Part shown: one piece after another, positions 5,748 to 54,174 of the stretch
How positions within the stretch are numbered: the stretch's first letter is position 1
Layout: each line of letters starts with the position of its first letter
Source of the DNA: Flavobacteriaceae bacterium
Lineage (GTDB): Bacteria > Bacteroidota > Bacteroidia > Flavobacteriales > Flavobacteriaceae
DNA: 64,000 bases
Assembly (NCBI GenBank): GCA_028284745.1
Contig: JANQRC010000068.1
Coordinates: 1-64,000 of the forward strand
Reading direction: 5' to 3'
The notes under the pieces: model-generated
What the model saw: only the letters and a program-made list of their open reading frames with translations
Databases searched by the model: none
Told to the model about the DNA's origin: nothing
Position numbers and translations under genes: made by a program

Positions 5748-7748
5748 ATGTCAATCCTAGATTCAAAAGTACCTGAAGGCCCATTAGCAGATAAGTGGAC
5801 CAATCACAAGAATACCATTGACCTGGTAAACCCAGCGAATAAGCGTTTGATCGACGTTATCGTTGTGGGAACCGGTTTGGCCGGTGGCTCGGCAGCCGCC
5901 ACGCTGGCAGAGTTGGGCTATAATGTAAAAGCGTTCTGCTATCAAGATTCGCCAAGACGTGCACACTCTATTGCTGCGCAAGGCGGGATCAACGCTGCAA
6001 AGAACTATCAGGGCGATGGAGACTCTAACTACCGTCTTTTCTACGATACGGTAAAAGGAGGCGACTATCGCTCTCGCGAAGCCAACGTGTATCGATTGGC
6101 AGAGGTCTCTTCCAATATCATCGACCAGTGTGTGGCACAAGGGGTCCCTTTTGCTCGTGATTACGGCGGATTGCTTGACAACCGGTCGTTTGGTGGTGTG
6201 CTGGTCTCTAGAACCTTTTATGCGAAAGGACAAACCGGGCAACAGTTGCTTCTTGGAGCCTACTCTGCAATGAACCGACAGATCGGCCGTGGCAAGATCA
6301 AGATGTACAACCGACACGAAATGCTCGATGTGGTGATCGTAGATGGCAAGGCCAGAGGAATCATTACAAGAAACTTGGTGACTGGCGAGATCGAGCGTCA
6401 TGCTGCACATGCCGTCGTATTGGGTACCGGTGGCTACGGAAACGTGTTCTACCTCTCTACCAACGCGATGGGCAGTAATGTCACCGCAGCATGGAAAGCG
6501 CACAAACGTGGAGCATTCTTCGCGAATCCATGCTATACACAAATTCACCCGACCTGTATCCCTGTGTCGGGAGACCATCAGTCTAAATTGACGCTGATGT
6601 CAGAGTCGCTCCGAAATGATGGGCGTATCTGGGTTCCCAAGAAAAAAGAAGACGTGCAAGCCATTCGGGAAGGCAAGTTGAAGCCCACTGACTTGGCAGA
6701 AGAAGACCGCGACTATTACCTAGAGAGGAGATATCCTGCCTTTGGAAACTTGGTGCCGCGCGATGTGGCCTCAAGAGCTGCCAAAGAGCGTTGTGATGCT
6801 GGTTATGGGGTGAATGCCACCGGTGAGGCTGTATACCTTGATTTTGCAGCAGCCATAGAGCGTTATGGCAAAGAGCAGGCACATGTGAAAGGATCGGATG
6901 AAAACGATAAGGCTTTAGTGAAGAAACTTGGAAAAGAGATCATCAAAGCAAAATACGGGAACCTCTTCCAGATGTATGAGAAGATCGTCGATCAGAATCC
7001 GTACGAGACACCCATGATGATCTATCCAGCCGTGCACTACACCATGGGCGGTGTTTGGGTAGATTACAATTTAATGACAACCGTACCAGGACTGTACTGC
7101 ATCGGGGAAGCTAACTTCTCAGATCATGGTGCTAACCGCTTAGGGGCTTCGGCCTTGATGCAAGGATTGGCAGATGGTTATTTTGTATTGCCATACACCA
7201 TTGGAGACTATTTGGCCGACGACATCCGTACGGGGCCAATTTCTACGGAGACATCAGAATTTGAAGGATCAGAGAGAGCTGTTCGTGAGCTTTTAGACAA
7301 GCTGGTCAGTAATAACGGTGGCAAATCAGTTGACCATTTCCACAAGAAACTAGGAAAGATCATGTGGAACAAATGTGGGATGTCTCGCAACGAGAAGGAA
7401 CTCAAAGAAGCCATACAAGAGATCAAAGCACTTCGCGAAGAATTTTGGAAGGATGTAAAAGTCCCTGGAGGGGCGAACGAATACAATGAAGAACTAGCGA
7501 AGGCAATGCGCGTGGCCGACTTTTTAGAGTTGGGCGAACTGTTTGCCAAAGATGCGCTCTATCGAGAAGAATCTGCTGGCGGACACTTTAGAGAAGAGTA
7601 CCAGACCGAAGAAGGCGAGGCCAAACGTAGAAAAGAATTCCAATTTGTATCTGCCTGGGAATACAAGGGAGCACCCAGTGATGCCGTGTTGCACAAAGAA
7701 GACCTTGTGTACAAGAATATAGAAGTAAAAGAAAGAAGTTATAAATAA
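5748..7748 (+). CDS. sdhA: Succinate dehydrogenase flavoprotein subunit
   Basis: SdhA oxidises succinate to fumarate with covalently bound FAD in the TCA cycle, on the cytoplasmic face of the membrane with SdhB and SdhC. The 666-residue protein has the dinucleotide-binding motif [10 protein letters not shown] near residues 41-50. The covalent-FAD histidine lies in [11 protein letters not shown] near residue 72. The substrate-binding/active-site stretch around [11 protein letters not shown] and the C-terminal FAD motif [18 protein letters not shown] are also present. This long form is typical of the Bacteroidota/epsilon-type succinate:quinone oxidoreductase. It is followed by a 75-base spacer carrying a repeat motif before sdhB. 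Confidence 0.97.
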
Positions 7749-7754
7749 GATGTC

Positions 7755-7812
7755 AGTATTGAGATTGGAGGTGTTAGAAACAATATCTCAGTACTCAATA
7801 CTCAATACTAAA
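7755..7812. repeat. Intra-operon inverted/tandem repeat, copy 1 (sdhA-sdhB spacer)
   Basis: AGTATTGAG at 7755-7763 is the reverse complement of CTCAATACT, which appears twice in overlapping 7-base steps (7794-7802 and 7801-7809). The spacer could form a hairpin with a loop of about 30 bases just before the sdhB start. The same arrangement occurs between atpD and atpC at 53844-53893, so this is a dispersed element rather than chance sequence. Confidence 0.75.
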
Positions 7813-7823
7813 ATCTAAGTCAT

Positions 7824-8570
7824 ATGAAACTTACATTGAAGATATGGCGTCAAAAGAGCGCTCAGGATAAAGGGAGAATGGTAGATTATCAGCTCGATGA
7901 TGTATCCCCAGACATGTCTTTTCTTGAGATGTTAGATGTGCTGAACCAACAATTGATAGACAATGGCGACGATCCCGTGGCGTTCGACCACGATTGTCGT
8001 GAAGGTATCTGTGGAATGTGCTCACTTTACATCAATGGAGAAGCGCATGGCCCTGACCGTGGCATTACTACCTGCCAGCTACACATGCGCATGTTTGACG
8101 ATGGCGATACGATCTATATAGAACCTTTCCGTGCAAAGGCATTTCCTGTGATCAAGGACCTGGTGGTGGATCGAAGCTCGTTCGACAGAATTCAACATGC
8201 AGGCGGCTTCATCTCAGTGAACACTTCTGGGAACACCATCGATGCCAATGCGATACCTATTTCAAAGCACGCCGCTGATGAAGCCATGGATGCTGCGACC
8301 TGTATCGGTTGTGGAGCCTGTGTGGCCAGCTGTAAGAACTCTTCGGCAATGCTGTTTGTGTCGGCGAAGGTATCTCAATTCGCTTTGTTGCCACAAGGCC
8401 AAGTGGAAGCTGCTGATCGTGTAATGAACATGGTGAAGCAAATGGACGAGGAAGGCTTCGGAAATTGCACCAACACAGGTGCTTGCGAGGTAGAATGTCC
8501 CAAAGGAATCTCTTTAGAGAACATCGCCCGCATGAATCGCGAATACCTATCTGCTAGTTTGAAGGGATAG
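7824..8570 (+). CDS. sdhB: Succinate dehydrogenase iron-sulfur subunit
   Basis: SdhB carries the three Fe-S clusters that take electrons from the SdhA flavin to the quinone site. The 248-residue protein shows the [2Fe-2S] ferredoxin motif [17 protein letters not shown] with a later cysteine in GITTCQL. The [4Fe-4S] and [3Fe-4S] ligands are in [13 protein letters not shown] and [15 protein letters not shown]. It is the third gene of sdhCAB and is followed by a strong terminator at 8602-8628. The ATG lies 11 bases after the repeat described in the spacer, so the repeat could affect ribosome access; that effect is an inference. Confidence 0.96.
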
Positions 8571-29156: not shown

Positions 29157-32100
29157 CTATCTGATCATCACTTTCTTTGTGCGCCTACCAAATTCTGTGT
29201 TCACTCTGACGACATAGACACCAGATCTTATATTCATCGGGATGCTGATGTGACTGTCTGTTGAAGCAATTTTGGCCTTCTTGACCACTTGACCGTAGAT
29301 ATCAAGAACCCTGATCGATTTTACTGTGACGTTTTCGGGATTTACGATCATAATCTCTGACCCACTTCTGTTGGCGATGATGTCTATGCTCTTCTTCGCT
29401 GAAATATCCTGTGGTGTGAACCCTTTAGGATGGAAGATGATAGAGAATCTATCTAGGGTGGTGCCTTGAGGTACGGTCACTTCATAATCGGTCTCTCTCA
29501 AGTTGGTTACGGTCTCAGCTTCCTTGTCTCTAAGGTAAACACCTGCCTTTGGAAGGAAATTGATCAGTTCATCTAGCTTGAAGGTCACAGTTCCTTCCTG
29601 AGAGCTATTGACACCAAGTGGCGTCTCTAACCTTCTGCGGAATCTCTGAAGTGATTGTATCACCAATTTGTTGTCGCCGACCACCCAATAGAAGTCATCA
29701 TTGTTCTCATCACCAAGGTCAGAGTCCAGGCCATAGTCCATATCGTCGGTAGCGCTATCGTCAAACCCCAATAAGAGCTGTCTTGTGTAGCCACTTTCTG
29801 AAGTCATGGAGATGCGTAGCTTCATTCTTTCGTCAGCGGTAGTCGATGGTCTGTCGGCAGGCTTCTCTTTGGTAGCCTTACCACCCGATACACCATCGGG
29901 AGCTGCTCTGAAGAACAGCGATGATCCGTCAGATTCTTTTTGGAAGGTACGTTGTCCGTTATTGAATTCAATAGTACCGCCAGCAGCAGCTTCTACGAAG
30001 AACCCTTGAGATACAGGAATGTATTGGCTAGGCACTTTGTTTGAGGGCGTGCCAGCACCATTCCATGCGATAGCAGGAGTGCCATCCATTTCGTTTCTAT
30101 AGGCATAACCACCTTGATACCCAACAGTTACATGCGTTCCGCCACCAAAGTGATCCCAGAATTCCAAGGTGCCATCAATAACACCTGCATTGTCTTGGAT
30201 GAACTGTGTGGCATCCAAGGCAGAAGCATAAGGATTACCAACAAGATATTGGTTTCCTGTGTCGATGTTCAGTGTGATATCACCATTGTTGGGTTTGCCG
30301 ATGAATACATAGTTCTGCTCGGCCCCTAGACCAAAGTCAGGGCCTTTCATAGAATACCCTTGTCCAGCCTCTACGATACCTGTATTGCCTGTATATACCC
30401 AAGAGAAATAATCATCTGCGGTGCCATTTACGAAACGATAGATCCAACGAGTACTCAAGGTGATCGGCGTGGTAGGAGTTACATCACCATCAAAGGTCCA
30501 TGTAATGTCCTCTGCAACACCTGTAGAACCATCGTGCAGTACATTTTGGATCTGATAGTTCGTATTATTAGATGAAGTACTTGTTTCTCCCACAGGCGAT
30601 GACCAATAGTTGTAGGTGTATTGATCTTTTGTGCCCTGCTGGTCACGCTCTAGTGTCCCCGTACTTCTTTCGTTCAATACACTATTAGGGCCTTGGATCA
30701 ATTGGGATTCACCCTCTAGATCGATAAGGCCGTTAAGGTCAAGATAGCGTCTAACATCGAGTCCAGAATCTTCAGCCACCTCTAATTCGGCACTAATACT
30801 TATCAAGAGCCCGAAGATATTGACACTTCTATCTAGTGTATACTTGGTAGATGGCACCCTAAGAAGATCATTACCTTCTAGTTGAACAATTGCATATTCA
30901 GAATCAATGAAAGCTAAGGCATCTACCACATCCTGACCGTTCAGCCATGTGCTAGCGTCATGCCACATACCGCCATTTTTAGCAACTAGCGGAAGTGGTG
31001 CCGTTCTAGGTTGGGCTGTAGAGACATTCAGCAATTGACCTCTATTTTTCATGGCTTTGTCAGAAGCTTTACTGTCGATCACCTCGTCCATACGATAGTA
31101 GAATTCAAGATCGCTCCAAACATTTCCTTCAATATCTAATGGAACAATGGCACCAATGAGATTTCCTGTAGCGGTGTTCTGTTCTACTTCTTGGAATATC
31201 TGTGCCCCAACTTGTTGTTGTGTCAAGGCCGCATTAAAGGCTTTGATCTCGTAAATAGAGCCTCCAAACAGTTCAGCATTTGCGGGCAATAGATCCAGGT
31301 CATAGTTTCTTCCAATTAGAAAATGGCCTCCTCCAACTGTAACATCGGCCATATCTCGGGCTGAGTCAATTGCTCTCTCGTCAATTTCTTCACCATTGAG
31401 GTACAGCTTCATTGTTCTAGCATCCACATCGACCACACTAGCAAAGTGCTGCCATACTCCTTTAGTGACCAATCCAGAAACATCTGTGTTGCTTGAAAAG
31501 CTAACTTCTTGACCTGCGTCGTCTTTAGCAATGATATTTGATCGCAACACTCCTGTGGTTGCATTCAAGGAGATATTGTGATTTCGTTGCCCTGCGATAG
31601 ATACGTTGCCGGATAGAGACGGGTCGGCTAAAAACCATCCCATGATGGTGTTTCCGTTACCAAAGACCAAAGGAGACTCTGTAACCACACAATCGTCCAC
31701 ACCATCGAAATCGATGGTGGTTCTGGGATTGTCTACATTGTCTCTATAGTCTACATCATTGGTCAGTACAGTGCTCAAATAGGTGTCACCATCACTGTCG
31801 CCCAGAAGTACTTGCATTTGCCACAGGTTTCCGTTAGTGATGTAACCGCTTACATTCCATGAAGCTGTATTGTCTATGGCATCAAAATCATCATCGATGC
31901 CATCGTTGTCGGCATCAGTGAAGGTGCCTGGGCTGTTGGCAGCCATACCATTCTCTTCTGCATCAAAGACGGCGTCATTGTCAGAATCGGTATCTCTAAA
32001 ATCTTCAAAAGCGTCGCCATCAGAATTTTGAGGCGTGATACCGCCAGTGGCCACATATGCAGAGTTTAGACCATTGTTGCTAGTATATGTTCCGCTGGCA

Positions 32101-33032
32101 TCATTATTCAATTCAACAAAACCAAAGGTGCTTTGTGCTTCTACGTTATCTGGAATACCGTCATTGTCAGAATCTAGGTCTTGGGAGTCCAGCAGGCCGT
32201 CTTCGTCAGAGTCTAAGAAGTCTACGAACAAGTTAGCGCTCGGTTCTCCAAAATAAGTGACGATGTCACAAGGGTCGAATGATATAGAGAAATAACGGTC
32301 ATTGATATCGCCCGTAGTACCTATTACGTAGTTGAAAGATGATAATGAGCTGTATCGCAGACCTGCCATCACCTGTGTGTTTTCGAGCGAGGTGGGGCTG
32401 TAAGTTGTGGTGCTTCCGTCAAAGCGAATGCTCGAAGGACCTTCGGTCACGGTCAGCTCGGTACTGCTTGATCCGGATGGGTTGTTATCTATAGCGTAGA
32501 CCAAACTTCTGGTATACTCTTGAAACTCTACCCCATCTTCGCTGCCATCGATATCCGTGGCGACGATAATGAAGTTTGGAAATACTCTGGGGATCGAATT
32601 GTCAGAACCTTCTACAAAATCGATCCTGAACTCTACACGGCGTGCCGCCCCACCACGAAGTACAGGGGCAAAGAAGGTGTCAGAACCAGATTCGGTAGTA
32701 TTATCATCGAAAACCAAAAGGGCATCATTGCTGTCCATGCTTACGATGGTTACCAATGCATCTATGCCGAGGCCGACATTATCATATTTGTATACGGCAC
32801 CAACGCTTAGATCAGTACCACTGACCAAACTTATCTTATCATTGCTGAAGTTTAATTGCGGAAAATCGTCACATGCCAGGTTTGGTACTTCAACTACATC
32901 GAGGAGGCCATCGTTGTCGTCGTCTACATCGACGCTGTCGACAACACCATCGCCATCAAAATCCTGTGCTAGAAGGGTTGTTGTTCCACATAGGAAGAAC
33001 AATAATAAAAATGGAGTAAAAACTTTTCTCAT
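29157..33032 (-). CDS. T9SS surface protein with thrombospondin-3 repeats and LamG domain
   Basis: The protein has 1291 residues. A signal peptide (to about residue 22, TTLLAQ) leads directly into a calcium-binding TSP3 repeat (DFDGDGVVDSVDVDDDNDGLLD). More TSP3 motifs lie near residues 270-300 and 340-390 (DSDEDGLLDSQDLDSDNDG; DADNDGIDDDFDAID). A LamG/concanavalin A-like domain is at about 440-610 (WFLADPSL, HFASVVDVDARTMKLYLNGEEID). A C-terminal half of about 600 residues is shared with the next gene. It ends in a T9SS type A sorting domain (ILDIYGQVVKK-type strand, SGVYVVRVNTEFG, KVMIR). It is predicted to be secreted and adhesive or structural, needing calcium; the ligand is unknown. Confidence 0.88.
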   Translation of the reverse strand: MRKVFTPFLLLFFLCGTTTLLAQDFDGDGVVDSVDVDDDNDGLLDVVEVPNLACDDFPQLNFSNDKISLVSGTDLSVGAVYKYDNVGLGIDALVTIVSMDSNDALLVFDDNTTESGSDTFFAPVLRGGAARRVEFRIDFVEGSDNSIPRVFPNFIIVATDIDGSEDGVEFQEYTRSLVYAIDNNPSGSSSTELTVTEGPSSIRFDGSTTTYSPTSLENTQVMAGLRYSSLSSFNYVIGTTGDINDRYFSISFDPCDIVTYFGEPSANLFVDFLDSDEDGLLDSQDLDSDNDGIPDNVEAQSTFGFVELNNDASGTYTSNNGLNSAYVATGGITPQNSDGDAFEDFRDTDSDNDAVFDAEENGMAANSPGTFTDADNDGIDDDFDAIDNTASWNVSGYITNGNLWQMQVLLGDSDGDTYLSTVLTNDVDYRDNVDNPRTTIDFDGVDDCVVTESPLVFGNGNTIMGWFLADPSLSGNVSIAGQRNHNISLNATTGVLRSNIIAKDDAGQEVSFSSNTDVSGLVTKGVWQHFASVVDVDARTMKLYLNGEEIDERAIDSARDMADVTVGGGHFLIGRNYDLDLLPANAELFGGSIYEIKAFNAALTQQQVGAQIFQEVEQNTATGNLIGAIVPLDIEGNVWSDLEFYYRMDEVIDSKASDKAMKNRGQLLNVSTAQPRTAPLPLVAKNGGMWHDASTWLNGQDVVDALAFIDSEYAIVQLEGNDLLRVPSTKYTLDRSVNIFGLLISISAELEVAEDSGLDVRRYLDLNGLIDLEGESQLIQGPNSVLNERSTGTLERDQQGTKDQYTYNYWSSPVGETSTSSNNTNYQIQNVLHDGSTGVAEDITWTFDGDVTPTTPITLSTRWIYRFVNGTADDYFSWVYTGNTGIVEAGQGYSMKGPDFGLGAEQNYVFIGKPNNGDITLNIDTGNQYLVGNPYASALDATQFIQDNAGVIDGTLEFWDHFGGGTHVTVGYQGGYAYRNEMDGTPAIAWNGAGTPSNKVPSQYIPVSQGFFVEAAAGGTIEFNNGQRTFQKESDGSSLFFRAAPDGVSGGKATKEKPADRPSTTADERMKLRISMTSESGYTRQLLLGFDDSATDDMDYGLDSDLGDENNDDFYWVVGDNKLVIQSLQRFRRRLETPLGVNSSQEGTVTFKLDELINFLPKAGVYLRDKEAETVTNLRETDYEVTVPQGTTLDRFSIIFHPKGFTPQDISAKKSIDIIANRSGSEIMIVNPENVTVKSIRVLDIYGQVVKKAKIASTDSHISIPMNIRSGVYVVRVNTEFGRRTKKVMIR

Positions 33033-33190
33033 AATCCAACTGTTTTATGGAAAAGTCATGTGCAAGATCGTTGGGCAGGGTAAATATTGTGATTCTATGA
33101 TTAAAATTATCCAATATGTGGATCGAATGGGGGTTTTTTAGTTGATTTATAACCTTTTATCGACGAAATGCCAAGCACACTATAACGCAT

Positions 33191-33221
33191 TAAAAAACGC
33201 CAAACATCTGTTTGGCGTTTG
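33191..33221 (-). terminator. Terminator after the 1516-residue surface protein
   Basis: On the minus strand AAACGCCAAACA pairs with TGTTTGGCGTTT around a short GA loop and runs into TTTTTTAATG. It follows the stop codon of the gene at 33243 by about 20 bases, separating the two paralogues into two transcripts. Confidence 0.85.
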
Positions 33222-33242
33222 ATTCATATCGTAGGGATCAGC

Positions 33243-36200
33243 TTACTTTTTAAACACTTTTCTTGTAAGCTCTCCTTCTTCTGTAACCACCTTTACGATG
33301 TACATGCCTGCACTGTCTCCCAGTGCTATGTTCATCTGTGTGTCTGAGGTAGCTTCCGTACTATTGAAAATTCTCTGACCGAATACATTGTGAATGCTTA
33401 CTTGCTGGATCGATCGTGCATTCTTGTTCAACACAACAACCTCAGAAGCATCACTGCTCATGCTAACGCTTAGGCCATCTAACTGTTCAAAGCTATCGTT
33501 GCCAAGTGTTAGCTCGTCTTGGAAGCGTATTGAGAATCGACCGTGGGTGACTCCAGCGGTTACAGGTGTTTGGAAGTTTCCTTCGCGAAGATTAAAAACT
33601 TGTCCCGTTTTTAGGTCGCTTATATAGATGCCAACGTCAGCAGGCACATGCGCCAACTCATCGATCTTGAACGTAACCATACCATCTGCTTCGCTCACCA
33701 CACCTAACGGAACCCGTAAAGCCTGATTCCATTGCGGAAGTGTTTGGATAACCAACTTGTCATCCCCAAGTGTCCAGTATAGGTCGTTCTCATTCTCGTC
33801 GGTGATTTTAGAGTCTAGGCCTCTGTCTATAAGATCAGTGGCTTTCTCATCAAAACCAAGCAATATTTGCCTTGAGTAATCGGTCTCCTCTGATTTCGCA
33901 GATAACCAGATCTTCATTCTGGTGTCCTCTTCCTCAGCGGATCGTTCTTGCGAAGCGCCTCTGATGAAAAGTGACGACCCGCCACCTTCAGTTTCAAAGG
34001 CACGCTGACTGTTATTGAACTCGATCATACCGCCAGAAGCTGCTTCAACGAAGAACCCTTGTGATACGGGAATGTAGCGCTCAGGTCTTTTGCCTGTAAC
34101 GCCACTGCCGTCCCACGATACAGCAGCGATACCGTCTAAGGCATTGCGATAACCGTATCCACCTTGGTATTCTTGGGTTACGTGGCTGCCACCTCCCCAG
34201 TGATGCCAGAACTGCAAAGTACCGTCTAGCACACTTAAGTTATCGTTGATAAAGGTAGTGGCATCTATAGCCGAAGGATACGGATTACCAATTAAGTATT
34301 GGTTTCCGCCTGTAATGCTTAGGTTGATAACGCCATTGTTAGGTTTACCATCGAAAGTATAGTTCTGCTCTAGGTTCACACCGGTACCTGGGCCTTTCAT
34401 AGAGAAACCTTCACCAGCATCGACGGTACCCGATTGCCCTGTGTATAACCACGAGTAGTAGTCATCAGCGGTACCGTCTACAAATCGATAGATCCAACGG
34501 TGACTTAATGTAATGGGCGAAGTAGCAGATCCGTCATTCGAGCTTGTCCATGTAATATTTTGAGGATTGTTTGGATCTGACCCATCTTTAAGAACATTCT
34601 GTATTTGGTAACTGTTGTTGTTTGTGCTGTTGTTAGGCGCACCGACGGGCGATGACCAATAGTTGTAGGTAAACTTGTCTAGTGTACCTTGTTGGTCACG
34701 TTCGATGGTTCCTGAACTGGTCACATCCAGATCACTGTCAGTCTCTTGGATCAATTGTGCTTCTCCCTGGAGGTCGATCTTCCCATCTAATTCTAAATAA
34801 TGTGAGACGGTCAAGGCATTGCCATCGTTTATGGTAAGTGTGTTGGCCGTATTCATCAAAGCCAAGACCTCTTTGCTGCTACCCGTCGTCACGTTGTGCC
34901 GTATTTCTATAATGTTCCAATCGATGTCTGTGCCGCCAAATGAAGAAGCAGGAATTATCTGTGTGCTTCCATTGGCCCATGTGCTGGAGGTTTCCCAGTT
35001 ACCATTGGCTGCAGAGACGTAGGGAAGTGGTGCCGTTTGCGAGGTGACCACACGCTTGTCGGGCGTTAGGTATTTAATTCGGGCCCAGTGATCATTGTTC
35101 GATTTGTCTTTTACAGAAGTACCATAGTAGCTGTTGAAGTCATAATAGACAAGCAGATGACTCCACAATTCTCCACTAAGATCGTTCTTGGTGATCGATG
35201 TGGGGATGATCTTTCCTTCTACATTGCCACTCACTTCCTCGATCTCTTGATTCATCAAATAGCGCAGCTGGTCTAGTGTCAACGCTTCATCCCAGATATG
35301 CAATTCATCGATATCTCCCGTGAACGAGTTCGAGATGTTGTTCTTGTCAGCCCAAACTACACCGACAGAGAAGAAATTGGAGGTGCCTGCTAAGGGAGCC
35401 GTCACTGTGCCCGAAACATCTAGGAAGCCATCGATGTAGAGCGCTGCAGCGCTTCCGCTTTTCACAACACTTATATGATGCCATCGGTCACCGTTGATGT
35501 TGACGGTGCCTGCCAATTGGGTGACTCCATTCCATGCCACATTCACAGTACCTCCCGCACTCACAGAGATTCGATAGTCGTCATCTTTGGCAAACACAGT
35601 GCCACCCGCACCGACTTTCTTCACCCAGGCAGAAATAGTGAAGTCAGAATTCAAGTCAATATCGTCGTTAGACACCAAGTAGTCGCCTGATCCAAAGTCT
35701 AGTCCGTAGCTGCCCTCAGCGCGTTCTGCGACACCTATCGTAAAGTAGCGTATGTTGTCAAAGTCGTACCAGATCTCTAGATCAGTGCCATTCACGTCGA
35801 AAGGCAGGATGTCTACAATATCTGCAGGACCAAAGGCACCGTTGGCAGCAACGATCAAGGCATACTCCTCATCGGCAGCTAAGGTGTGTGCAGCTTGCAA
35901 GAACGAAGCTGGGATCGAGATGAAAACATTTCCGATATCACCTGTGGTCGTCTCTTGGATACGCCACCTTCTGTCGGCCATGATATAGTTGGTGGTAGTA
36001 CCATCTAGGTCAACTGTGTTAATGGTAGGCGATGAGATCACGATATTGTCGCCATTGTTACCCCATACCAAGAAATCACGGTCGTTATCAAAAGTGTTTG
36101 GGTTGTTGCTATTGGTGTCGTAAATACCTCCCAGGGAGATGGTCACGTCATCTTCATCGTTCTGTGTGCGCGATTGCTTCTGGTTCAGACCCGTGTTGTC

Positions 36201-37793
36201 ATCACGACCAATACCCGTAATGTCATGGTTGTAGTCTCCGCTATCGGACGTGTGGTCCCAAATGGTAGTACCGTTAGAGGCATAGTAGCTGCGATCGCCC
36301 TCTCTATCAGAAGTGGTACTGGTGCTTCCTGCTTTCAGAGTAACCCCATTTTTAATGGCTAGATAGCTTAGGATGCGGTCCTGTTCGGTGTTACTTCCTT
36401 TTGAGGAATAGCTGATCAACTCGGACATGCCGCCATCGTAGTAGGAGTTAACGGAAGGGTTGAACCCATTCATGGTAAATCGACCCACACCCAAGTAATA
36501 CATCAAATTATCAAACTCGCTGAAAATTAAAGGATTGCCATCGCCAGCTAAGCCAGTCTGGTTGTCGACCTGCTCGCCATTGAGATAAATTTCGGTGGAA
36601 GTGTCGCTTGAGTTGGTCTTTATATTCAGGATCATCACGTTCTTATCGATGGTCTCTGTAGAGCTTGAAAAACACCTACCATACGAATCAGGAGTGGGCG
36701 GCCCCGAATTTGGATACGAACTGATCGTATGTGCGATCAGGGCATTGGTGTATCGACCAGAAATGAAGCCAAATCCCGTACCCGTACCGTCCACGCTAAA
36801 ACCAGTATCGTTGAATTTTCCAGCTATTGGCTGCTGGCGATACGTTCCCGTATTGTCTATAGGTTCGGTGGGTGAGAGCACAAGAAAATAGTCTTGAGAG
36901 TGGTACCCGCCCTTTCCTTTCATGTGATCCTGGGTCGTTCGGTCAAAATCAATGATGGGATTATAGTTCACGTTGTCCGTAGCGTTGTCCTTGTATGTGG
37001 GCAAGAAGGTGCTATAGGCAATGGCATTGTCATCACCAGCTTGGTCGGTCCAAGTGCTGATATCCGTATTATCGGTGGTCGTGACCCCATCGTTGGCTTT
37101 GAGCCAAAGTTCCAGATCGGTTGTTCTACCTCCTGGAGCCACAGTGATTGGTATGGTAGTACTTGGTGTTCCCTCCAAGAAAAAGTTGTCGATGGCCACC
37201 CCCATGTCTGCATCTTCATCATCACTGGCAAACACGATCCTGAAGTATATGGTAGTGCGATTGTCCATGGCCGAATCAACGACAGAAGTTTCGATGAATT
37301 TAGAGGCACTAGAGGCATTTTGAAAACTGGCACCGCTCCACCCATGTGCATTGTTGGAAATGGCATCGATGTCAGTGTCGTTGTACCAATTTAGACCTGT
37401 GCTACTTGTGGTACCCAATTGAAACCAAGCCGAGCCATTGTAACTGTACTCTACCTGCATCCCGTCGTCTACATCGTTGTCGGTATCATGAAAGATGTCC
37501 AGGCGTAGCTTCACACTGGTATAGCCCGAGGTAGAATAGGCTGGGCTGGTCAGATACGTATAGTAGTTGTCACCATAGCTGTTGAAGGAGTTCAGGGCCC
37601 AATAGCCAGCCTCTGCCTGTAGCGGTGTAGTGGTCGTGTGGTAGGTCCAAGACCCGTTGTGGGGCCCACTTCTGGTAGACGAGGTCCAGCTACCATTGTT
37701 GGCATCAAAGTTTTCGTAAACGAAGGTATGCTGTGCAAAAATTGCTGTTGTGAAGGACACAGCACATAGTAAGGTTAAGCACGTACGTAACAT
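33243..37793 (-). CDS. T9SS surface protein with MAM-like, DUF8202-like and LamG domains
   Basis: The protein has 1516 residues. A signal peptide (to about 20, TAIFAQ) precedes an N-terminal jelly-roll-like domain of about 190 residues (ENFDANNGSWTSSTRSGPH... MGVAIDNFFLEG). Next is a region of about 400 residues (ELWLKANDGVTTTDNTDISTW, ILSYLAIKNGVTLK, RRWRIQET) resembling DUF8202. A LamG domain spans about 700-865 (YGLDFGSGDYLVSNDDIDLN, WHHISVVKSGSAAALYIDG). The remaining C-terminal half is homologous to the neighbouring gene at 29157 and ends with a T9SS type A sorting domain (HNVFGQRIFNS, SAGMYIVKVVTEEGELTRKVFKK). It is likely a surface adhesin; its binding target is unknown. Domain names are from motif recognition. 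Confidence 0.87.
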   Translation of the reverse strand: MLRTCLTLLCAVSFTTAIFAQHTFVYENFDANNGSWTSSTRSGPHNGSWTYHTTTTPLQAEAGYWALNSFNSYGDNYYTYLTSPAYSTSGYTSVKLRLDIFHDTDNDVDDGMQVEYSYNGSAWFQLGTTSSTGLNWYNDTDIDAISNNAHGWSGASFQNASSASKFIETSVVDSAMDNRTTIYFRIVFASDDEDADMGVAIDNFFLEGTPSTTIPITVAPGGRTTDLELWLKANDGVTTTDNTDISTWTDQAGDDNAIAYSTFLPTYKDNATDNVNYNPIIDFDRTTQDHMKGKGGYHSQDYFLVLSPTEPIDNTGTYRQQPIAGKFNDTGFSVDGTGTGFGFISGRYTNALIAHTISSYPNSGPPTPDSYGRCFSSSTETIDKNVMILNIKTNSSDTSTEIYLNGEQVDNQTGLAGDGNPLIFSEFDNLMYYLGVGRFTMNGFNPSVNSYYDGGMSELISYSSKGSNTEQDRILSYLAIKNGVTLKAGSTSTTSDREGDRSYYASNGTTIWDHTSDSGDYNHDITGIGRDDNTGLNQKQSRTQNDEDDVTISLGGIYDTNSNNPNTFDNDRDFLVWGNNGDNIVISSPTINTVDLDGTTTNYIMADRRWRIQETTTGDIGNVFISIPASFLQAAHTLAADEEYALIVAANGAFGPADIVDILPFDVNGTDLEIWYDFDNIRYFTIGVAERAEGSYGLDFGSGDYLVSNDDIDLNSDFTISAWVKKVGAGGTVFAKDDDYRISVSAGGTVNVAWNGVTQLAGTVNINGDRWHHISVVKSGSAAALYIDGFLDVSGTVTAPLAGTSNFFSVGVVWADKNNISNSFTGDIDELHIWDEALTLDQLRYLMNQEIEEVSGNVEGKIIPTSITKNDLSGELWSHLLVYYDFNSYYGTSVKDKSNNDHWARIKYLTPDKRVVTSQTAPLPYVSAANGNWETSSTWANGSTQIIPASSFGGTDIDWNIIEIRHNVTTGSSKEVLALMNTANTLTINDGNALTVSHYLELDGKIDLQGEAQLIQETDSDLDVTSSGTIERDQQGTLDKFTYNYWSSPVGAPNNSTNNNSYQIQNVLKDGSDPNNPQNITWTSSNDGSATSPITLSHRWIYRFVDGTADDYYSWLYTGQSGTVDAGEGFSMKGPGTGVNLEQNYTFDGKPNNGVINLSITGGNQYLIGNPYPSAIDATTFINDNLSVLDGTLQFWHHWGGGSHVTQEYQGGYGYRNALDGIAAVSWDGSGVTGKRPERYIPVSQGFFVEAASGGMIEFNNSQRAFETEGGGSSLFIRGASQERSAEEEDTRMKIWLSAKSEETDYSRQILLGFDEKATDLIDRGLDSKITDENENDLYWTLGDDKLVIQTLPQWNQALRVPLGVVSEADGMVTFKIDELAHVPADVGIYISDLKTGQVFNLREGNFQTPVTAGVTHGRFSIRFQDELTLGNDSFEQLDGLSVSMSSDASEVVVLNKNARSIQQVSIHNVFGQRIFNSTEATSDTQMNIALGDSAGMYIVKVVTEEGELTRKVFKK

Positions 37794-52308: not shown

Positions 52309-53820
<1,512 letters not shown>

Positions 53821-53843
53821 AACAGTAACGAGATGTGTAGTTT

Positions 53844-53893
53844 AGTATTGAGTGTGATCTCATGATCTAAATGCTCAATACTCAATACTTAAA
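53844..53893. repeat. Intra-operon inverted/tandem repeat, copy 2 (atpD-atpC spacer)
   Basis: AGTATTGAGT (53844-53853) is complementary to the ACTCAATACT unit; CTCAATACT appears twice at 53874-53882 and 53881-53889. It repeats the sdhA-sdhB spacer motif in the same order, just before the start codon of the downstream gene. Confidence 0.75.
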
Positions 53894-53895
53894 AC

Positions 53896-54174
53896 ATGTA
53901 TTTAGAAATAGTAACCCCAGAGGCCACACTTTTCAGTGGTGAAGTAGAATCAGTTGCAGTGCCAGGCATCAACGGCGAGTTCCAGATGCTGAAGGATCAC
54001 GCCCCCATCGTATCGCTGCTTGGTCAAGGGAACGTGAAGATCCATGGTGCCATAGAACTTAGTAAGGAATTCAAAGATGAATTCACCAAAGGAGAAAACA
54101 ATACAACTGTGTTGTCGATCAACAGTGGAACGCTAGAGATGAAGGACAACAAAGTTATCGTGCTTGCAGACTAA
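53896..54174 (+). CDS. atpC: ATP synthase F1 epsilon subunit
   Basis: The 92-residue protein is the N-terminal beta-sandwich of the epsilon subunit (LEIVTPEATLFSGEVESVAVPGINGEFQMLKDHAPIVSLLG). It lacks the C-terminal helical hairpin that inhibits the enzyme in many bacteria. Such short forms are usual in Bacteroidota. It couples the rotor to the catalytic head in F1. The ATG at 53896 lies 2 bases after the repeat element in the atpD-atpC spacer, so that element forms almost the entire upstream untranslated part. A terminator follows the gene. Confidence 0.92.
   Translation: MYLEIVTPEATLFSGEVESVAVPGINGEFQMLKDHAPIVSLLGQGNVKIHGAIELSKEFKDEFTKGENNTTVLSINSGTLEMKDNKVIVLAD

Follow-up and report, generated by a model that had tools for sequence, protein, structure and literature searches.

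Heptad-phased hairpins in operon spacers of Flavobacteriaceae, often wrapped around a four-helix protein gene, suggest a little-noticed insertion family that may separate operon neighbours

Two operon spacers in a 64,000-nt stretch of a Flavobacteriaceae genome (positions 1 to 64,000 of contig JANQRC010000068.1, assembly GCA_028284745.1; hereafter, the window)—those between sdhA and sdhB and between atpD and atpC—hold stem-loops built of 7-nt units, and related hairpins, which often wrap a gene for a four-helix protein, suggest a little-noticed family of hairpin insertions that may separate operon neighbours. On balance, we favour the explanation that the window spacers hold ORF-less members of a heptad-phased stem-loop insertion family that is IVS-like (i.e., similar in anatomy to the IVS of 23S rRNA) and uncouples cistrons. 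Taken separately, the IVS-like identity of the elements, whose family also has members with a PF05635 (23S rRNA IVP) ORF in the loop, appears quite likely, and the uncoupling of the flanking cistrons by the stem-loop is a tentative model that we regard as possible. The evidence read from sequence consists of the phasing, the complementarity of the arms, the three states of one junction and the association with IVP ORFs.

The two window copies (Table 1) share a common layout: AGTATTGAG, a short loop, tandem CT-phased heptads (CTCARTA) and then sdhB or atpC. The first-pass annotation had described the same inverted/tandem motif in both spacers, and AGTATTGAG and tandem heptads are indeed present in each. 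Its count of two overlapping 9-mers per spacer is right for atpD–atpC (CTCAATACT at 53874 and 53881; the tandem 16-mer is 53874–53889), but sdhA–sdhB has three, at 7787 (CTCAGTACT), 7794 and 7801 (CTCAATACT). From the end of the heptads to the ATG there are 14 nt for sdhB and 6 nt for atpC. These genes, followed by an aminotransferase gene (sdhB) and a sigma-54 gene (atpC) that are both unrelated to their operon by Pfam, are plausibly the last of their operons. Both copies lie between protein-coding genes, outside any rRNA gene, and neither has an ORF in its loop. Gene starts were taken as called by a simple ORF finder, and folds are predictions.

Table 1. The two intercistronic inserts of the window and the genes on either side.
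Feature	Position	Strand	Basis
sdhA (succinate dehydrogenase flavoprotein)	5748..7748	+	Pfam; stop codon ends 7748
sdhA–sdhB intercistronic insert, whole: stem-loop, A-rich tail up to sdhB ATG	7749..7823	+	sequence, fold
sdhA–sdhB insert, 5' arm AGTATTGAG	7755..7763	+	sequence; paired in predicted fold
sdhA–sdhB insert, 3' arm heptads CTCAGTA CTCAATA CTCAATA CT	7787..7809	+	sequence
sdhB leader, A-rich and G-poor, AAAATCTAAGTCAT, ahead of start codon	7810..7823	+	sequence; cross-genus composition
sdhB (iron-sulfur subunit)	7824..8570	+	Pfam; ATG at 7824
atpD (F1 beta subunit)	52312..53820	+	Pfam; stop codon ends 53820
atpD–atpC intercistronic insert, whole: stem-loop and A-rich tail	53821..53895	+	sequence, fold
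atpD–atpC insert, 5' arm AGTATTGAG	53844..53852	+	sequence; paired in predicted fold
atpD–atpC insert, 3' arm heptads CTAAATG CTCAATA CTCAATA CT	53867..53889	+	sequence
atpC (F1 epsilon subunit)	53896..54174	+	Pfam; ATG at 53896

The motif in both spacers is real and beyond chance. Within the window, the single 9-mer occurs at chance level (20 matches vs. 17.6 expected, one mismatch allowed); the tandem 16-mer occurs twice, both times with the inverted arm, and is absent from all 100 dinucleotide-shuffled sequences. Allowing as many as 3 mismatches gives it 9 matches vs. 1.8 expected. Genome-wide there are five exact 16-mers, three with the inverted arm, as well as more diverged copies. The exact sites are sdhA|sdhB, atpD|atpC, atpA|atpG, fadI|acyl-CoA dehydrogenase and one after a guaB-like gene, and a looser heptad pattern adds sites that include rpsE|rpmD, rpsJ|rplC, nusG|rplK, trpG|trpD and trpB|trpA. 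The gene downstream of the genome's heptad sites is typically co-directional (genome gene names were read off translations, except those of the window genes and the IVP, which were identified by Pfam). The first-pass proposal of a dispersed element is borne out by these copies and by elements in the same spacers of other genera; the pair would have been put down to coincidence had the genome held no further copies and orthologous spacers lacked the motif, and both further copies and orthologous elements were found.

Long heptad arrays also occur in this genome, those of CTAACAC at C1:51562-51647, C30:5-90, C70:8476-8575, C31:22867-22931 and C20:17193-17271 (several of them at contig ends, where they probably broke the assembly) and others of CTCACTA. 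In the trpG–trpD spacer (C12:76642-76840), the heptad element and the first trpD codons are apparently tandem-duplicated. A separate observation from the window concerns positions 29157–37793 on the − strand, where two large adjoining ORFs have paralogous stretches ~4050 nt apart that are 72–78% identical.

Orthologous spacers were surveyed in one genome per genus within the family. The CTCAATA form recurs in named Flavobacteriaceae, at sdhA–sdhB in Aquimarina, Joostella, Zunongwangia and Mesoflavibacter and at atpD–atpC in Aquimarina. In most genera the sdhA–sdhB spacer is empty (~10 nt) and the atpD–atpC spacer is usually long. The insert heptads vary by genus (CTCAATA, CTGAATA, CTCATAA, CTGCAAA, CTAACAA, CCAATAA), and the design is kept despite the change in sequence: an AG/GT-rich arm after the stop codon and a CT-phased, G-poor arm before the ATG. 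Pooled autocorrelation at lags 7, 14 and 21 gave z of 14.3, 7.7 and 5.7 for 18 sdhA–sdhB inserts and of 18.7, 14.9 and 7.3 for 32 atpD–atpC inserts, with z never above 2.8 at any other lag in either set. CT–CT pairs at 7 nt numbered 31 vs. 4.8 expected (sdhA–sdhB) and 54 vs. 9.9 expected (atpD–atpC), and 8/18 and 21/32 of the respective inserts individually exceeded z 3 at lag 7. The defining feature of the element is its 7-nt phasing, not a fixed sequence. Averaged over all spacers genome-wide, the lag-7 autocorrelation is weak, and so heptads are a trait of a subset of spacers rather than of spacers generally.

Phasing of this kind could arise if the heptads were simple-sequence repeats (TAACTGA and others), i.e., slippage-prone 7-nt intergenic microsatellites whose hairpin would simply follow from inverted duplication, with no element behind it. 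Arrays of heptamers ahead of start codons have been described in Beggiatoaceae, cyanobacteria and some Bacteroidetes (PMC4679880), the long CTAACAC and CTCACTA arrays lie in this very genome, and a single genome holds several heptad sequences, a finding that led us to drop the idea of one own heptad per genome. Slippage alone, however, predicts neither complementary arms around a loop, nor arms that change together, nor an IVP ORF in the loop. Moreover, the signal is nearly confined to co-directional gaps: in ~1.65 Mb from four genomes, lag-7 z exceeded 3 in 14/451 co-directional spacers (~3%; vs. ~3.7 spacers for the average control lag), in 0/89 convergent and in 1/128 divergent spacers (1/217 for the latter two together). 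We therefore consider a microsatellite origin unlikely.

As RNA, the window copies are predicted to fold at −20.4 kcal/mol (z −3.6; sdhA–sdhB) and −18.1 kcal/mol (z −2.9; atpD–atpC), more stably than almost all shuffles, and across genera the mean fold z is −2.25 and −2.87, respectively, while the sequence changes. Co-directional spacers of 50–120 nt, terminators included, have a mean fold z of −1.3 to −1.8; because such ordinary spacers also beat their shuffles, the sdhA–sdhB fold z alone is a modest excess. Native arm pairs form more stable duplexes than combinations exchanged between genera (z −7.6 for atpD|atpC, −7.9 for atpA|atpG and −3.9 for sdhA|sdhB). Either selection for structure or the insertion of a preformed palindrome would account for this. 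No intrinsic terminator was found on the + strand around atpD–atpC, and A-rich sequence, with no U-run, follows both stems. Searches of Rfam at relaxed thresholds gave, among the matches listed, none at its gathering score, and PADLOC gave no match.

At the sdhA–sdhB junction, three states occur across genera: empty (most), hairpin (~12 genera) and hairpin plus IVP ORF (7). In these seven other genera, the ORF between sdhA and sdhB encodes a PF05635 four-helix IVP, and in six of them—those with delimitable arms—it lies within the loop of a complementary-armed hairpin whose arm duplexes have energies of −14 to −44 kcal/mol, the last at locus L546 (arms GTTAAGTGTTAAATGTTAAGGGTTAGGCGTTAAG and GCGCTTAACACTTAACGCCTAACACTTAAC). 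The genome studied here has its own PF05635 ORF (E 3e-39) in the fadJ|fadI spacer, between AGTATTGAG and CTCGATACTCAATACT, and its product resembles PDB 2gsc (E 2.8e-19). Phasing and pairing extend to IVP loci at large: the flanks of 48 such loci have lag-7 z of 14.8 upstream and 12.2 downstream, and outside fadJ|fadI the upstream:downstream duplex is −29.5 kcal/mol vs. −19.2 ± 1.0 kcal/mol with permuted partners. At the fadJ|fadI loci, own arms paired no better than permuted partners, a comparison that is uninformative there because the arms are alike across genera.

PF05635 was found in 68/90 genera of the family. The heptad triplet is present in 55/68 genomes with an IVP and absent in 17/22 IVP-free genomes, and heptad count tracks IVP copy number over the 90 genera, which are not independent samples (Spearman 0.70; 0.67 after genome size). 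A reversed pattern used as a control also tracks IVP copies (0.59, 90 genera); it is itself heptadic and rings in some genomes, and was dropped as unsuitable. Among independently drawn, named loci, 7 have the exact 16-mer ≤150 nt from an IVP ORF (1.0 expected), including one in Balneolaceae and one in Roseivirga. Because the IVP ORF sits in the loops of the same hairpins elsewhere, these data point to an insertion-element origin, the putative IVP link of the window copies resting on shared anatomy and shared sites. A search of mainly open-access literature turned up no description of IVP hairpins in intergenic DNA.

We infer that the element may be mobile. No transposition event or target-site duplication was seen, and in occupied vs. 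empty sdhA–sdhB sites, whose leaders are strongly diverged, no duplication was apparent by eye. Mobility of another kind would be that of REP-like or MITE-like palindromes, moved by a transposase (RAYT or DDE) and tolerated in operon spacers. The elements are dispersed, palindromic and intergenic, as such palindromes would be, and number from a few up to a dozen in this genome; yet across genera they have no fixed sequence or terminal motif, their 7-nt phasing is strict and no duplication was seen beside empty sites, which makes a transposase-moved palindrome highly improbable.

In the atp operon, hairpins across genera come after atpE (28/29 spacers long, fold z −5.3), atpA (26/30, −4.2) and atpD (32/48, −2.7), i.e., after subunits needed in many copies, and there is no common hairpin across genera after atpB (z +0.5) or atpF (3/29 long). 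We rejected stoichiometry as the only rule, because sdhA–sdhB (1:1) and atpH|atpA (1 to 3; its spacer also has a hairpin signal, z −2.4) do not conform to it. The hairpin after atpE is a separate conserved structure. In the atpE–atpF spacer of this genome (C47:208709-208793) and of further genera (L464–L492), its top, AACGGTTGGTT, is nearly invariant in almost all of 28 genera and the stems vary; the loci scanned gave no Rfam match. At atpA–atpG, loci L440, L441, L449, L451 and L455 are without heptads and have palindromes of other kinds (TCATTCCTGCGAG...CAGGAATC, GTCACTCTGAGC and the like), which gives the impression that any hairpin is favoured at this site.

The occupation of the same junctions in many genera is also what might be expected of an ancient regulatory RNA, i.e., a conserved cis element, unlinked to mobile elements, whose binding by a ribosomal or RNA-binding protein adjusts how strongly the downstream subunit is translated. 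In the inserts, the A-rich, G-poor composition of 3' arm and leader would suit such a role and matches the preference of Flavobacterium johnsoniae, in which initiation is promoted by adenines ahead of the start codon and by a lack of structure (PMC6847099). However, presence is sporadic (sdhA–sdhB is empty in most genera), the sequence is not conserved and lacks an Rfam match, and unrelated palindromes fill atpA|atpG in some genera. We judge a regulatory RNA of this kind to be quite improbable.

Under the insertion-family explanation that we favour, the element would run from the stop codon through an AG-phased heptad 5' arm, a loop with or without an IVP ORF and a CT-phased heptad 3' arm (roughly CTNANNA) to an A-rich leader and the start codon, slippage by 7-nt steps giving varying heptad numbers. 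In the mRNA, the stem-loop would uncouple the cistrons on either side by acting as a barrier or as a site of RNase III-type cleavage, with the upstream message stabilised and/or the downstream message lowered, and the G-poor, A-rich 3' end would leave open a translation start of the Bacteroidia kind. Since known IVS stem-loops are cut by RNase III, the hairpins here could, by analogy, be cut or stop exonucleases, and at the RNA level their probable role is the insulation or processing of the adjoining cistrons. The first-pass annotation had offered an mRNA or translation element and a parasitic palindrome as alternatives; both readings survive and are not mutually exclusive. It is partly supported overall, having overlooked that the 7-nt phasing is defining, that most genera are empty at sdhA–sdhB and that an IVP ORF lies in the loops elsewhere.

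If PF05635 proteins ride in heptad hairpins, a common four-helix family of obscure role gains a genetic context. The same would offer an origin for heptamer repeats so far reported without explanation, and would hint at how unrelated genera got hairpins at atpA|atpG, atpD|atpC and sdhA|sdhB. It bears, too, on how expression is separated within operons in Bacteroidota, rare users of Shine-Dalgarno control. A bolder and doubtful extension is that these hairpins form a propagating, mobile Bacteroidota class in which a loop-encoded IVP/Avd-like ring protein recognises the 7-nt phase of the stem, ORF-less derivatives have been taken up to keep the expression of neighbouring cistrons apart in core operons, and the heptamer repeats of Bacteroidetes, cyanobacteria and Beggiatoaceae are traces.

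Several known systems invite comparison. Intercistronic REP/BIME elements (e.g., malE–malF) are dispersed operon-spacer palindromes that have been proposed as protectors of the upstream mRNA segment. The elements described here are likewise dispersed palindromes sited in operon spacers, but REP sequence is conserved, whereas these differ by genus at one junction and are heptad-phased. The genome's own IVP scores against Pfam bAvd of diversity-generating retroelements at E 9e-6, below the curated cut-off, and homology between Avd and PF05635 has been noted (PMC10053308).

The IVS of 23S rRNA are stem-loops with an S23p/IVP ORF in the loop that are excised from rRNA by RNase III (Coxiella, Leptospira; PMC4990558). 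Shared with them are the stem-loop with complementary terminal arms (present in the window copies), the S23p/IVP ORF in the loop of related copies and a sporadic pattern of occupied and empty sites. On the contrary, the elements here lie in operon spacers rather than rRNA helices, their arms are heptad-phased, the window copies are without the S23p/IVP ORF (as are some known IVS), and RNase III cleavage, shown for IVS, is proposed here by analogy. As rRNA location and ORF are both missing, we do not file the window copies as IVS and use "IVS-like" for anatomy.

Tandem heptamers (TAACTGA and others) have been described in intergenic DNA before start codons, including in Bacteroidetes (MacGregor, 2015; PMC4679880). 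The window copies, too, have tandem 7-nt intergenic units close upstream of a start codon, and the TAACTGA unit fits CTNANNA in phase (CTGATAA), although the window unit is CTCARTA. That paper predicted no particular RNA structure and named no linked gene (PMC4679880); to such heptamers, the elements described here add an inverted 5' arm, and with it a hairpin, and a link to the IVP gene.
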